The translations under genes and the position numbers were made by a program. This document shows, piece after piece, positions 5,624 through 55,567 of a stretch of DNA of 64,000 nucleotides (positions within the stretch are counted from its first letter, which is position 1; every line of letters starts with the position of its first letter). The notes under the pieces were generated by a model, which made no database searches, was not told where the DNA came from, and was given only the letters and a program-made list of their open reading frames with translations. The stretch is taken from NCBI GenBank assembly GCA_026826555.1, contig JAKSZT010017954.1, forward strand, positions 4,368,642 through 4,432,641, in the 5' to 3' direction. This DNA comes from Tolypeutes matacus. Lineage: Eukaryota; Chordata; Mammalia; Cingulata; Chlamyphoridae.

Positions 5624-6282
5624 TGTGATGAGGCTTTATGGGCTCCTTAAATCACAGCTCCTGTGTGGAGCTTGGGTGGGGGTGTGTGAGCCAAGTAAGA
5701 ATGATGACTCTGGGGTCTGGGAAGGGCTCTCTACCCCCAACCTGCCTCCTTCCCTGACTCTCATTCTGGTGGGAGTCCTAGCTGTAGCAGAGCATTTGGT
5801 ATAACCAGCTTCTCTTTGAACAATTTCCCGGGTGTGTCTCCTCCCCTCTGCTCCGCCAGCCCCTGGAGTGCAGGAGTACGTGCTGTGGATCTTGGCGTCT
5901 GCAGTACCCAGCTCTGTGCCTGGCAGGTAGTAGGTCCTCGATCAAGATTCTGTGAATGCAGAGATGATGGATGAGTCAAAGGAGGACCTTAGCCTGGGTT
6001 CCCTGGAAAGCAGAGCCTGAGGTGAAGGCTCAAGTGCTCCTGCTTTAGGAGGGAGCACAACTCCAAGAAGCAGGAGCAAAGGACCAGGCCGGTGAGGGGG
6101 GAGGGAGAGAGAGTCACCTTGATGCTGCTGCACCGGCCACTGCTGGGTAACGAGCATGCACGGCTCCTTGGTGTTGGGGTGGAGCGGGCACAGTGTCTTC
6201 CTTCTCAGAATGGCCCAGGGGAGAGGAAGGGAGAAGAACGTGCCACTGGCTCCTGTTGGTCAGTCTTGCCCCACCCGGTGTA
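5624..6282 (+). repeat. Direct duplication, copy A
   Basis: It aligns collinearly with 11040-11673, about 5.39 kb downstream in the same orientation. The best part (about 5990-6280) is in the high-80s percent identity by eye. The block contains an old L2 3' end (about 5760-5965) plus non-L2 sequence. The shared junctions point to duplication of the block rather than independent insertions. Confidence 0.8.
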
Positions 6283-11039: not shown

Positions 11040-11673
11040 ACATGATGGGGCTTTACAGAGCTGGGGGCGGGGAGTCAGTCAAGCAGGGGTGATGACTCAG
11101 GGGTCTGGGAAGGGCTCTCTATCCCCAACCTGCCCTCTCCCCTGACTATCATTCTGGTAGGAGTCCTAGCAGTAACAGAGCATTTGGCATAACCAGCTTC
11201 TCTTTGAACGATTTCCCGTGTGTCTCTTCCCCTCTGCTTTGCCAGCCCCTCGAGCACAGGACCACATGTTATTGATCTTGGCATCTGCAGTACCCTGCCC
11301 TGTGCCCAGCAGGTAGTAGGTGCTCAATTGATGTCCTGTGAGTGCGGAGACGATGGATGAGAAAAGGGAAGCTAATAGCCTGGGTTCCCTGGAGAGCAGA
11401 GCCTGAGGCCAAGGCTCATGTGCTCCTGCTTTAGGAGGGAGTGTGAACCCAAAGAGCAGGAGTGAAGGACCAGGGTGGTGAGGAGGGAGGAAGGGAGAGC
11501 CGCCTTGGGGACGCTGCTGCGCCGACCACTGCTGTGTAACGAGCATGCATGGCTGCTTGGTCTTGGGGTGGAGCGGGCACAGTGTCCTCCTTCTCAGAAT
11601 AGCCCATGGGAGAGGAAGGGAGAAGAACGTGCCACCGGCTCCTGTTGGTCAGAGTCTTGCCCCACCCAGTGTT
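11040..11673 (+). repeat. Direct duplication, copy B
   Basis: This is the partner of 5624-6282. Homology starts weakly near 11040, is clear from 'gatgactcaggggtctggga' (11091) and ends near 'ccccacccagtg' (11673). Small open frames in both copies are not conserved end to end, so I do not call a gene. Confidence 0.8.
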
Positions 11674-16454: not shown

Positions 16455-16645
16455 TTTATTTTATTTTATTTTTTAAGATTTTATTTATTTATTCATTTAT
16501 CCCCCCCTTGCTGCTTGTGCTCGCTGGGTCAGCTAACCACGCCGTGCGGGTGGGCCCGCCCTCACCAGGAGGCCCCGGGAACTGAACCCGGGGCCTCCCA
16601 CATGGTAAACGGGAGCCCCACTGATTGAGCCACAGCCGCTTCCCT
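16455..16645 (-). mobile_element. DAS-type tRNA-derived SINE
   Basis: Read on the minus strand, the head at 16567-16645 resembles a tRNA gene, with A- and B-box-like sequence (GGGTTCAGTTCCC for the B box). Extra body sequence and an A-rich tail follow (T-rich at 16455-16500). A 15-bp duplication with one mismatch flanks it (16440-16454 and 16646-16660). This type is characteristic of armadillos and their relatives. Confidence 0.8.
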
Positions 16646-26781: not shown

Positions 26782-26795
26782 CCCACTGTCTTTCT
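26782..26795. repeat. Target-site duplication, 3' side of the ZNF retrocopy
   Basis: The 14-bp sequence CCCACTGTCTTTCT is identical to 28846-28859. It sits directly against the poly(T) that marks the retrocopy's 3' end on this strand. Confidence 0.85.
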
Positions 26796-26819
26796 TTTTT
26801 TTTCCTTTTAAAGGAAATC

Positions 26820-26825
26820 TTTATT
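26820..26825 (-). promoter_or_regulatory. Polyadenylation signal AATAAA of the retrocopied transcript
   Basis: The plus strand reads TTTATT here, so the minus strand reads AATAAA. It lies about 17 nt before the poly(A) tract that ends the retrocopy. That is the normal spacing for the cleavage site of the parent mRNA. Confidence 0.75.
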
Positions 26826-26869
26826 GTTCCTCCTCTTTTCAAAAGTAACACATGCTTGTCAACAATTAA

Positions 26870-27205
26870 ACAGAAATAAATTAATTTGGAGTTGATATCT
26901 TTATAATATGGGTTTTCCTATCCAAGAACAAGGTCTTTATCTTTCTCCACTTATTTAAGTTTCCTTTTGTGGCCTCAGTGGAGATTTATCATTTTCCCCA
27001 TATAGGTCTTATATATTTATTAAGTTTATTCCTAGAAAAATCTACTTTTCTCGATGCGTTGGAAATGGTATATTTTCTTTCATATTTCCTTATTGGTTGT
27101 TGGTATAAAATGACGTTATATATTTTTGGATGTTACTTTTTAACTGGTCAACCATTCTTGATTAAAAATTGAATACAATAGGAAAAAAATGTGTTTCCAA
27201 GTGAA
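26870..27205 (-). mobile_element. L1 ORF2 fragment inside the retrocopy's 3' UTR
   Basis: The plus strand reads as antisense L1 ORF2, in the region around 'tccaagaacaaggtcttta' through 'aagtttattcctag'. The fragment has neither an L1 3' end nor its own target-site duplication, and it lies wholly within the duplication that bounds the ZNF retrocopy. The likeliest explanation is that it was already part of the parent transcript's 3' UTR. Confidence 0.5.
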
Positions 27206-27310
27206 GACTTTGCCATGTTCATTTCCCTCCCAGGATTTTTGACTAGGATGAACCTGATAGCACTTGATCTATTTTGGCATTAATCTTGAGAGTTTTCTAC
27301 ATCTTCTTCA

Positions 27311-28930
27311 TTAGGATTTTTCTTCGCTATGGACATTCTGATGTTGACTAAGTTGGAAACTAAACCTAAAGGCTTTCCCACACATATTACACACATACGG
27401 TTTCTTCCAAGTGTGGGCTGTCTGATGTATAATACAGTCAGAACTATAACTGAAGCCTTTGCCGCACTCCACACATCTGAAGGGTTTTTCTCCAGTGTGG
27501 CTTCTCTGATGCCGAATTAAATGGGCGTTAACATGGAAGGCTTTTCCACACTCCTTACATTGAAAGGGTTTCTCTCCAGTATGGATTCTCTGATGTACAA
27601 TATAGTCAGAACTACAGCTAAAGGCTTTCTCACATTCCATACATTTGAAAGGTTTCTCCCCGGTGTGTATTCTCTGATGCCGAGTTAGTTTGGCATTGAT
27701 ACTAAAGGCTTTCCCACATTCCTTACATTGATAAGGTTTTTCTCCCGTATGGATTCTGTGATGATCTAGCAGGTTTCTTTTTGAAGAAAAGCATTTTCTA
27801 CACTCATTACATTGAAAAGGTTTCTCCCCAGTGTGACTTCTCTGATGCTGCATTAGTTTTGCATTCACATTGAAGGCCTTTCCACACTCGTTACACTCGT
27901 AGGGCTTCTCCCCAGTGTGGACTCTCAGGTGCTGCCGAAGCTGGGAGTTGCACCTGAAGGTTTTCCCACATTCATTACATTCATAGGGTTTCTCACCTGT
28001 GTGGATTCTTTGATGCTGGATTAACTTCCCTTTGACACTAAAAGCTTTTCCACATTCAGTACAGTCATAGGGTTTCTCCCCTGTGTGGATTCTTTGATGC
28101 TGAATGAGTTTTGCATTATTATTGAAGGCTTTTTCACATTCCTTACACTGATAGGGTTTCTCTCCAGTGTGGATGCTCTGATGTTGCCTAAGCTGGGAAC
28201 TACATCTGAAACCTTTCCCACACTCATTACATTCATAGGGTTTCTCTCCAGTGTGGATTCTCTGGTGCTGAATTAATTTTGCATTAACATTGAAAGCTTT
28301 CCCACAGTCATTACACTCGTATGGTTTCTCCCCAGTGTGGACTCTCTGATGTGTGATATATGCAGAACTACAGCTGAAGCCATTTCCACACTCCTTGCAC
28401 CAATAGGGCTTCTCTCCAGTATGGATTCTATGATGCTGACTTAGACTCCCATTAACACTGAAGGCTTTCCCACACACCTTACACTGATAGGGCTTCTCAC
28501 CACTGTGGATTGTCTGATGTGTGATATAATGGGAACTGTAGCTGAAGCTCTTCCCACATTCCACACACCTGGAGGGTTTCTCCCCACTATGAAGTCTTTG
28601 ATGCCAAATTAATTTTGCTTGAACGCTGAAGGCTTTGCCACACTCATTACACTGATAGGGCTTCTCTCTGGTGTAGCTATCTTGATGTTGATTACACTGG
28701 GAGTCACATGGAAAGGTTTCCACTAATTCTTCACATTTGAAAGGTCTTTCCTCAGTATTAATTACCTCATGCTGAATAGGTTTCGTGTCAACACTGAAGG
28801 CTTTCTCCAACTCTGCACACTCCAGTGGAAATGGTATGACACTGACCCACTGTCTTTCTGTCAACAAGCGCCTGGGTGACTGTGGGGTGCCTCTTTCTCT
28901 ACCTCGAGGCGTGTGGCCTTCTGGGTCCAC
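27311..28930 (-). CDS. Open reading frame with 16 C2H2 zinc fingers (ZNF23-like)
   Basis: The 539-codon frame encodes sixteen consecutive 28-residue C2H2 units, at about residues 92-539. All have C-x2-C-x12-H-x3-H ligands, and most have TGEKP-type linkers. Two degenerate fingers precede them, at about residues 38-60 and 66-88. By family knowledge this would be a nuclear, sequence-specific DNA-binding protein. The frame opens with GTG at 28928-28930, after a stop at 28991-28993. No in-frame ATG occurs until finger 10 (about residue 361). The first roughly 28 codons derive from the flanking DNA and the target-site duplication, not from the parent gene. Translation of the full array would need a spliced-on upstream ATG or a non-AUG start. 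A product starting at Met361 would still hold six complete fingers. No KRAB or SCAN domain is present. Expression is unknown. Confidence 0.6.
28846..28859. repeat. Target-site duplication, 5' side of the ZNF retrocopy
   Basis: This is the second copy of CCCACTGTCTTTCT. It marks the 5' truncation point of the inserted cDNA. The codons read through it in the long frame therefore come from the pre-insertion locus. Confidence 0.85.
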
Positions 28931-30409
28931 AGGGAAGGAGGAAGGGCCTGGGCCCTCGGCTGCCTTGCCGACACTGCCTTGGGGGGAGTTTCAAGAGGGG
29001 GGCTCTGGGGCAGGCCAGGGGCAGCTGGAGGGCAGCTGGAGCTCTGTCTCTGGCTGTGGTTCCAAGAGTCCCTGCTGGGCAGGGAGGAGGCTGGACTGGC
29101 CTCACTGCTGTGGGGAACGGAATAAAGGGGGACCCCAAAATCACATCTGAGGTAAATGTGAGCTCCCAAACAGCCCTTTGAAGCAGGGATCTAAAAGGAG
29201 CTAAGTGGAACTGGATGCAAACTGAGGCAGCAGGCGGAGGTGGGGGAGGGTCCCCAAAGCAGCACTCTGGAGGCCCAGTGGCTCCTCCAGGGGTTGGAGG
29301 AAGCTGTTAAGCTGTTCTGTGGGGAGTTGCTGGGAGGTGAAGCAGAGAAGGGGGTCACCCAGCTCACAGGATGGAGGGCTGGAGCGTGGCCTGGGGTGGA
29401 GGCTGGGCCCAGAGCTCCCCCTCGTCTGTCCTCTTACACCTGGTGTGGGGCCTCCTTCCCTGGACCCGGCACAGCCACCCCGGACAGAGCCTGTGCTCCC
29501 TGGATATCTGTGGGCACAGGAACCTCTTGACTCTTCTGGGTCCCTCCATCTGGGTCCACAGCAGGCCTGGTGTAAACCTCTCCTGGAGGAGGACAGCGCC
29601 GGCTTGAAGCTCAAGTCACCCTAAGGAGACTGTGGGTTCCTGCCCAGGGGAAACAGGAAGGGCACTTTGCTCCCTGGATTCCCAGGTAGCACGTGGACAC
29701 GTACTCAGTGGTCAGAGGGGCCCTGAGCATGGCCCCTGATCTCAGGGACCACCGCCGTGGGCTCAGGGACGCAGGTGGGACGCGGTCTCTCTGTGGTGGG
29801 AGCTCACTGCCTGCTGTGCGGCTCCCGCATCACCCCCGCTACCATCTAATCAGATAGGTGCTGGGGCCATGGGGCTAGGTTTTTACACTGAATATAGCAC
29901 CTTAGGAGGTAATTAAAAGTAATTCCAACTTACACATCGTGGAGAACGTCAGGGGTCCCAATTTATACCTTGGTTACACTTTTCAAAGCCCCCTTTCCAG
30001 CCCCATTTCCATTTCTCAGAGCAGATCCAGGACCAGCCAGCCCCCCACCCCCACACCAAATCCCAGCGTCTCCTCGGCAGACCTGTGTTTGGCTTTGCAC
30101 CCTTGTCCTCGCTTCATTCCCAAAGCTCTTGAGTATGCAGAACCACTTAGCTTCTTTCACTAAGGCCTCCACTCCCTCCTCCCCACCCCCCCAGACCTCC
30201 CCATTATGGAATAGCCTAGAACCAGTCGACAAAGAGGCTTCTTCATTTGGCAGGAGAGGCAGCGAGAGGGGGCGGTGGAAGAAATCTCCTCTGCTAATGC
30301 TTCTGGCTCCCGTCACATCGTAATCCAGGGTGAGACACGCAGAGGGCCTTCGGAGAGGTCCACACACCGAGCTTTGGTGATTTTGAGGTGAGCGAGGCCC
30401 ACCAGGCTT
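28860..30409. other. Flank of the ZNF retrocopy, no gene recognised
   Basis: GC-rich unique DNA with open frames on both strands at 28.9-29.6 kb. Nothing is identifiable. The first part supplies the non-ATG 5' extension of the zinc-finger frame. Confidence 0.45.
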
Positions 30410-45311: not shown

Positions 45312-45421
45312 GTTTTCTCTTGTCTGTTTTTTTTCTTTTTCTTTAGGAGGTACCAGGAACTGAACCCGGGACCTCCCATGTGGAAGGGAGGCACTCAACT
45401 GCTTGAGCTACATCTGCTCCC
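45312..45421 (-). mobile_element. DAS-type tRNA-derived SINE
   Basis: A tRNA-like head lies at about 45345-45421, with B box GGGTTCAGTTCC on the minus strand. A T-rich tail is visible at 45312-45344. A short repeat TGCTCATT lies on both sides (45304-45311 and 45422-45429). Confidence 0.8.
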
Positions 45422-53759: not shown

Positions 53760-55551
53760 TTTCTTTTTTTTTTTAAATTAGGCTAGTAATTTATTAAGGT
53801 AGGGAGGGAAGAGAAATGGGAGAAAATAGCAGAACATAGGTCCCAGGTAGAGAGGAAGGGGCTAAAGAGTGATAAGGAGGGCTGATTTATAGACTACAAT
53901 ATCCCATTATAAATTATAAATGCCCAGGTTTTACTTGCGTGTTGACCCATGTGGGGAGGGGGCATGGCGAGAGCGGCACAGAAGGCAAGAGAGAGAGGGG
54001 GAGAGAGATTGTTCAGACTTTGAGTTTGCTTTTTTTTTTTTTTTTTTTACATTTCTCAATTGAATGTAATGGATACATATAAATTTTTTTTTTTTTGAAT
54101 CAAACAATATGTTACACAATATATTTGGTTCATAGTAATGCATTCATACAGTATTTGTCCTTTTGTGTCTGGCTTGCTTCACTCAACATAATGTCCTCCA
54201 GGTTCTTCCATGTTGCCATATGCTTTACGACTTCATTTCTTCTTACAGCTGCATAATATTCCATTGTGTGAATAGACCACAGTTTGTTTATCCATTCATT
54301 TGTTGATGGACACCTGGGTTGTTTCCAACTTTTGGCAATGGTGAATAATGTTGCTATGAACATCAGTGTGCAGATGTGATGTCTGTTCGTGTCACTGCTC
54401 TCAGTTCTTCTGGGTATATACCCAAGTAGTGGTATTGCAGGGTCATGTGGCAAGTCTATATTCAACTTCTTCAGGAACTGCCAAACAGTCCTCCATAGTG
54501 GTTGTACCATTCTGTATTCCCACCAAAACAGTGAAGAAGTATTCCTATCTCTCCACATCCTCTCCAACACTTGTAGTTCTCTGCCTTTTTAATAGTGGCC
54601 ATTCTGATAGGTGTGAAATGATATCTCATTGTAGTTTTGATTTGCATTTCCCTAATCATGAGTGATGTTGAGCATTTCTTCATGTGTTTTTTTGCCATTT
54701 GTATTTCTTCTTCGGAGAAATGTCTATTCAAGGCTTTTGCCCATTTTTTTAATCGAGTCATTTGTCTTTTTGTTGTTGAGTTGTAACATCTCTTTATATA
54801 TCCTGGGTATTAAACCCTTATCAGATATGTGATTTCCAAATTTTTTTCCCATTGAGTTGGCTGCCTTTTCACCCTTCTGACAAAGTCCAGTGAGGTGCAA
54901 AAGTGTTTAATTTTGAGGAGGTCCCATTTATCTATTTTTTCTTTTGTTGCACGTGCTTTGGGTGTGAGGTCCAAGAAACCACCACTTACTACAAGGTCTT
55001 GAAGATGTTTCCCTACATTTTCTTCTAGTAGTTTTATGGTCCTGGCTTTTATATTTAGATCTTTGATCCATTTTGAGTTGATTCTTGTATAGGGGGTGAG
55101 ATAGGGGTCCTCTTTCAATCTTTTGGTTATAGATATCCAGTTCTCTCAACACCATTTGTTGAAGAGACTGTTTTTTCCCCATTAGCGTTGGCTTGGTAGG
55201 TTTGTCAAAAACTAGTTGACTGTATAGGTGAGGGTATATTTCTGGGTTCTCAATTCTATTCCACTGATGGATGTGTCTATCTTTATGCCAGTACCATGCT
55301 GTTTTGACCACTGTAGCTTTGTAATATGTTTCAAGGTTAGGCAGTGAAATTCCTCCCACATTGCTCTTCTTTTTTAGAATGCTTTTGGCTATTCGGGTGC
55401 ACTTACCCTTCCAGATGAATTTGGTAATTGCCTTCTCTAATTCTGTAAAGTAAGCTGTTGGGATTTCGATTGGTATTGCATTGAATCTATAAATCAGTTT
55501 GGGCAAGATTGACATCTTCACGATATTTATTCTTCCAATCCATGAATACGG
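53760..55551 (-). mobile_element. 5'-truncated L1 with ORF2 3' half and apparent 3' transduction
   Basis: The minus strand encodes the C-terminal part of L1 ORF2 in broken frames, about 55521-54130. Recognisable pieces include [21 protein letters not shown] and IHTMEYYAAVRRNE. Frameshifts and stops make it inactive. The element ends in three A-rich tracts (T-runs at 54084-54096, 54030-54048 and 53764-53774). About 255 bp of non-L1 sequence lie between the last two, with an AATAAA (53790-53795) before the final tail. A 16-bp target-site duplication encloses everything (53744-53759 and 55552-55567), so the extra sequence arrived with the L1. Confidence 0.85.
53775..54029 (-). other. Putative L1 3'-transduced segment
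   Basis: This sequence lies between the L1's own poly(A) and a second terminal poly(A) preceded by AATAAA (minus strand, 53790-53795). It is inside the outer target-site duplication. It should therefore be a copy of the DNA downstream of the parent L1 elsewhere in the genome. Confidence 0.65.
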
Positions 55552-55567
55552 AAGGACTCATGTTTCT
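55552..55567. repeat. Target-site duplication, L1 5' side
   Basis: This is the second copy of AAGGACTCATGTTTCT. It fixes the 5' truncation point of the L1 at about 55551. Confidence 0.85.

Follow-up and report, generated by a model that had tools for sequence, protein, structure and literature searches.

A young ZNF23 retrocopy with an open 16-finger array, most likely a neutral processed pseudogene

Introduction

The 64,000-nucleotide stretch of DNA analysed here (GenBank assembly GCA_026826555.1, contig JAKSZT010017954.1, positions 4,368,642 to 4,432,641; hereafter the window) contains a minus-strand retrocopy of the zinc-finger gene ZNF23, in which 16 C2H2 zinc fingers can be read in a single open frame. 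The locus raises the question of why its array is still open. The original prediction, made from the sequence of the window, offered two answers, that the copy is either young or still constrained. Comparison with the parental gene, located in the same assembly, upholds the first (0.39% divergence), while the hint of constraint falls, as all seven coding differences are nonsynonymous. The locus is best explained, with high confidence, by a recent LINE-1-type retroposition of ZNF23 mRNA, and the copy is now, most likely, a neutrally evolving processed pseudogene too recent for its frame to have decayed. The features of the insert are as follows.

26782–26795, no strand: target-site duplication at the 3′ (poly-A) end of the insert, 14/14 identical to 28846–28859
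26796–26803, minus: A-tail (T8 on the plus strand outside the duplication; the parent encodes A7)
26804–27310, minus: 3′ untranslated region (3′UTR) from the parent, 1 difference (27058)
26820–26825, minus: polyadenylation signal AATAAA
27311–28858, minus: open frame of the copy including the stop, 7 differences from the parent, all nonsynonymous
27329–28657, minus: 16 C2H2 zinc fingers, 64 ligands present
27851–27853, minus: first in-frame ATG, inside finger 10
28823–28824, minus: junction of a 14-bp frame-shifting deletion relative to the parent
28845, minus: 5′ truncation point, within the parental finger exon
28846–28859, no strand: target-site duplication at the 5′ end of the insert

The parental ZNF23 gene

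A search of the source assembly (3.63 Gb, 5002 contigs) with the whole insert, in which the best 40 of 2486 candidates were scored, gave the copy itself and then, as its one other close match, a parental locus at C4447:1314793-1316855, 99% identical and on a different contig from the copy. The next-best match by score is only 69% identical, and the remaining matches range from 65 to 74%, except for stretches of 53 bp and 41 bp at 89–90%. With the 3′UTR as query (best 40 of 101), the copy itself and the C4447 locus are followed by repeat-like partial matches of 68–78% identity, the next-best by score at 70%. Part of the 3′UTR common to copy and parent (26876–27090) resembles an interspersed repeat, with tens of matches at about 70% among the matches listed, and may be a piece of an old LINE-1.

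In addition, tblastn with two ZNF23 proteins placed upstream exons of the parent at approximately 1322530–1322682 (KRAB-A) and 1321819–1321941 (KRAB-B), about 5 kb upstream of a finger exon whose frame (1315310–1317133) follows the acceptor-like site TTTTTTATAG. Judged from these tblastn matches, which suggest its splicing, the parent resembles an ordinary ZNF23 gene with several exons. KRAB C2H2 genes usually carry all of their fingers, the stop codon and the 3′UTR in one exon. Here too, the copied segment, from the truncation point through the fingers and stop to the poly(A) site, lies within one parental exon, and the KRAB exons were not copied. Because there was no intron to lose, the missing introns are uninformative; the original prediction was correct that the copy has none, but in this case the point says nothing about retroposition. 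Its proposal of ZNF23 parentage is supported, as C4447 carries a ZNF23 locus of its own, complete with KRAB exons, and no ZNF23 exons or introns adjoin the copy.

The name ZNF23 derives from two protein database entries, P0001 (Chrysochloris) and P0170 (Cricetulus), to which the protein read from the copy is 79% (362/457) and 83% (413/499) identical, respectively. These are the two ZNF23-named entries among the protein matches listed (best 120 of 7842; 12 of 12; best 120 of 7817), which also include one Dasypus protein (ZNF483) and no Dasypus ZNF23. Since Dasypus ZNF23 is likewise not listed, the missing annotated protein for the copy is uninformative.

Insert ends and mechanism of origin

The insert is 2050 nt in length (26796–28845), with its poly-A side at 26796, and is bounded by two identical copies of the 14-mer CCCACTGTCTTTCT that directly abut the ends of homology to the parent. 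On each side of the 14-mer the neighbouring base differs between the two copies, which fixes the length of the repeat at exactly 14 bp; it has no third occurrence in either orientation in the window, and the computed chance of finding it at a given position is approximately 4e-9. The AATAAA signal is followed, after 16 nt, by an A-run seen as T9 on the plus strand (26795–26803), one base of which is common to the duplication. When aligned, copy and parent share homology from the duplication at one end to the A-run at the second duplication at the other, where the copy reads GG-A9-GAAAG, with its last A within the duplication, and the parent GG-A7-TGAG. The perfect target-site duplication, the polyadenylation signal with poly(A) and the 5′ truncation described in the original prediction all withstand this comparison, with the qualification that the non-genomic tail is very short.

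The homology breaks off precisely at the poly(A) site although the parental DNA runs on, and each end of the insert adjoins a copy of the target duplication; these two features show an RNA origin. A segmental or exon duplication of the last exon of ZNF23 at the DNA level would draw on the single-exon content of the copy, in which intron loss cannot be shown, but it would account neither for homology that stops at the poly(A) site nor for the 14-bp duplication at both ends, and is extremely improbable. In the retroposition model, a nick on a different contig would have been the site at which a polyadenylated ZNF23 transcript underwent reverse transcription. Synthesis would have halted 5′ of the finger region but still within the last exon, giving rise to the 5′ truncation and the 14-bp target duplication. 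We infer that LINE-1 was the responsible machinery. The right flank (1055 bp, including one duplication) has a single match in the source assembly, and this search with the flank showed neither a paralogue nor a second haplotype in which the site is empty.

Divergence and age of the copy

The alignment of copy and parent covers 2042 bases, of which 8 differ (0.39%, 95% confidence interval 0.17–0.77%). Seven differences are coding (28624, 28572, 28437, 28430, 28402, 27961 and 27417), and the eighth (27058) is the only one in about 507 bases of 3′UTR. The parent comparison suggested along with the original prediction thus gives 99.6% identity, with 0 synonymous changes and 7 replacements. The copy also carries the 14-bp frame-shifting deletion at 28823/28824, which lies 22 nt from its 5′ end and is detectable only by comparison with the parent. 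The array is still open despite this frameshift because the deletion sits upstream of all fingers. The ends of the 14-bp gap are not GT-AG, and its interpretation as a tiny intron was rejected.

Six of the differences most plausibly arose on the copy: Phe96Ser, Arg141Gln, Gln143His, Arg153Trp, Ala300Thr and Val481Ala, with CpG transitions at residues 141 and 153. The other two, Ile/Val 79 and the 3′UTR change at 27058, resemble CpG loss in the parent. Residue 79, at helix position -1 of finger 1, is Val in the copy and Ile in the parent; Val is also found in both outgroup proteins (Chrysochloris and Cricetulus) and is probably ancestral. At an assumed rate of 2.2e-9 substitutions per site and year, the age is 0.9 million years if the changes are shared by both branches and 1.8 million years if all occurred on the copy, or 0.65–2.6 million years across rates of 1.5–3e-9. 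The copy is very young, at roughly 1–2 million years under this assumed rate. The original prediction holds that old zinc-finger retrocopies usually decay quickly; even if correct, this does not concern a copy that is not old.

The zinc-finger array and selection

The stop-to-stop frame at 27311–28990 (minus strand) encodes 559 amino acids and contains 16 C-X2-C-X12-H-X3-H units with 64/64 ligands, in agreement with the predicted array, although the longest AUG-started sense frame in 26796–29060 covers only 180 amino acids, or about six fingers. Fifteen Pfam families match the 559-aa frame, with the highest scores for zf-H2C2_2 (416 bits) and zf-C2H2 (263 bits), and KRAB is not among them. Weaker families that are likewise above the cut-offs, such as Zn_ribbon_8 and DUF3741, are presumably cross-matches to the fingers. 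In a structure search, the best 60 of 277 matches are solely other zinc-finger proteins.

Before the parent was found, an estimate with two outgroups over 371 columns had assigned 7 replacements to the copy lineage, 7 to Chrysochloris and 30 to hamster, with 9 columns differing in all three. The parent superseded this estimate, as it shares 6 of those 7 copy-lineage replacements, leaving Phe96Ser as the only copy-specific one, and long-term constraint on the array was rejected at the same point.

Without selection, 73% of coding changes are expected to be replacements, and the probability that all seven are is 0.11; this falls to approximately 0.07% if the rate at which replacements are retained is set to one fifth of neutral. 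The all-replacement pattern gives no support for purifying selection, with few events and low power. Both the aromatic core position and helix position +6 of C2H2 fingers have established roles. Through Phe96Ser, finger 2 has lost the conserved aromatic residue at its start, and in finger 3 Arg141Gln alters helix position +6.

Whether an open array is expected at this age was addressed with a decay model in which transitions were weighted fourfold and CpG sites eightfold, giving 0.056 nonsense changes per missense change, and in which 0.12 indels per substitution were assumed. For divergences (d) of 0.0025–0.005, the modelled probability of acquiring no stop is 0.86–0.74, and that of acquiring no stop and losing no ligand is 0.62–0.38. 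Under these assumptions, an open array would be unremarkable rather than certain at the age of the copy.

Several observations weigh against a recent LINE-1-type event followed by neutrality. When indels are also excluded, the modelled probability of a fully intact frame is only 0.39–0.15 over the same divergences. The age is loose, given that the rate is assumed and that the parent branch most plausibly accounts for two of the eight differences. The LINE-1 endonuclease consensus nick is TTTT^AA, from which the plus-strand nick site here, TTTCT^GT, departs despite being T-rich. For so young an insertion, the non-genomic A-tail is short, with 8 A outside the duplication and A7 already encoded by the parent; shrinkage of the tail or priming inside the A-run are possible explanations. 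Five of the eight differences are clustered within 222 bp (28402–28624) on the 5′ side of the insert, close to the 14-bp deletion (p=0.023, post hoc), a pattern that may reflect reverse-transcription errors, a parental haplotype or chance. Finally, a xenarthran retrocopy catalogue reports no peak of retrocopies at a synonymous divergence (dS) near 0 in D. novemcinctus (Uliano-Silva et al. 2026, PMC13251070); if that species is the source, such a young copy would be unusual for it.

The clustering, as if gene conversion had erased other differences, together with the fully open array, would also suit an older retrocopy held intact by strong selection or by repeated conversion from the parent. 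However, the 3′UTR, which is not shielded by selection on a protein, has diverged as little as noted above, the 14-bp duplications are still identical, every coding difference is a replacement, and copy and parent lie on different contigs, making such an origin very improbable.

Potential for expression

Beyond the 5′ end of the insert, the frame stays open for about 44 codons past the duplication. Of the four pyrimidine-rich AG sites up to 29060, two (28921 and 28978) fall inside this open stretch. The upstream flank is G+C-rich and CpG-poor, with observed/expected CpG ratios of 0.16 at 28860–29360 and of 0.32 and 0.35 in the following 500-bp stretches. The copy could be an expressed new gene if transcription from the flank were spliced through one of the upstream acceptors into the frame, yielding a KRAB-less 16-finger protein that would compete with ZNF23 at its targets. 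That retrocopies can be expressed is suggested by D. novemcinctus, in which the catalogue reports 27% as expressed in three tissues (PMC13251070). However, there is no in-frame ATG ahead of finger 10 and hence no start codon for the 16-finger frame, the flank is not CpG-rich, and acceptor-like sites occur frequently by chance in pyrimidine-rich DNA. In addition, the core residue of finger 2 is gone and purifying selection is not evident. An expressed gene is accordingly an unlikely outcome, with a small chance of being correct.

A more specific version, to which we give a slightly smaller chance, is that the flank drives a lineage-specific decoy: a KRAB-less ZNF23 array that would occupy ZNF23 sites without repressing, with altered contacts at fingers 1 and 3. 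Were this true, the all-replacement pattern would be adaptive, not neutral. The copy lacks a KRAB domain, the promoter of its parent and a usable start codon from which all 16 fingers could be read, so a neutral processed pseudogene is the most likely state of the locus.

Surroundings in the window

Of 129 further stop-to-stop frames with 100 amino acids or more, the 30 compared with Pfam gave no match (0/30), and no host gene was identified, although short exons would escape such a search. Rfam gave no match in the window at the gathering threshold. In the comparison with viral contigs, one stretch matched a pattern and none encoded a relative. A segment of about 590 bp is present in two direct copies (5675–6263 and 11063–11652), which are 80–92% identical and lie about 5.4 kb apart. 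ARAGORN called a tRNA-Gly at 16566–16641, of which a 74% identical copy is found at 45345–45421; the call may thus mark a short interspersed element derived from a tRNA and not a tRNA gene. Open frames on the minus strand at 54130–55557, for which Pfam gave no match, have protein sequences resembling the end of LINE-1 open reading frame 2 (ORF2).

Relation to known retrocopies and significance

The insert resembles mammalian processed retrocopies mobilised in trans by LINE-1 in its target duplication, A-tail, 5′ truncation, separate parent with upstream exons and scattered replacements. It departs from them in no essential respect, only in its single-exon content, with no spliced junction, and in being young compared with the reported armadillo spectrum. 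Relative to the ZNF23 gene itself, the 16-finger array and 3′UTR are 99.6% identical to the locus in the same assembly, whereas the KRAB exons and start codon are absent and the 14-bp deletion and seven replacements set the copy apart. No description of the locus was found by title or abstract start among the papers listed, in a literature search that most subscription papers and the retrocopy databases lie outside; the name ZNF23 does not occur in any of the 20 papers listed by one of the queries.

The closest published comparison is the xenarthran catalogue, whose entries are the same kind of object as the ZNF23 copy. In it, 13,403 retrocopies are reported in D. novemcinctus, where LINE-1s are mostly old and the dominant full-length family stands at about 5.2% Kimura divergence (PMC13251070). 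The pipeline, as described there, requires an exon-exon boundary; the ZNF23 copy has none, being a single-exon segment, and should therefore be missed by it (PMC13251070).

By itself, the locus is a single young processed pseudogene, and processed retrocopies are already a known kind. More generally, catalogues that demand an exon junction should miss 5′-truncated copies of KRAB C2H2 genes that contain none. If the source were D. novemcinctus, the copy would indicate that mRNA retroposition continued to about 1–2 million years ago, a small counterexample to the lack of recent retroposition in that species.
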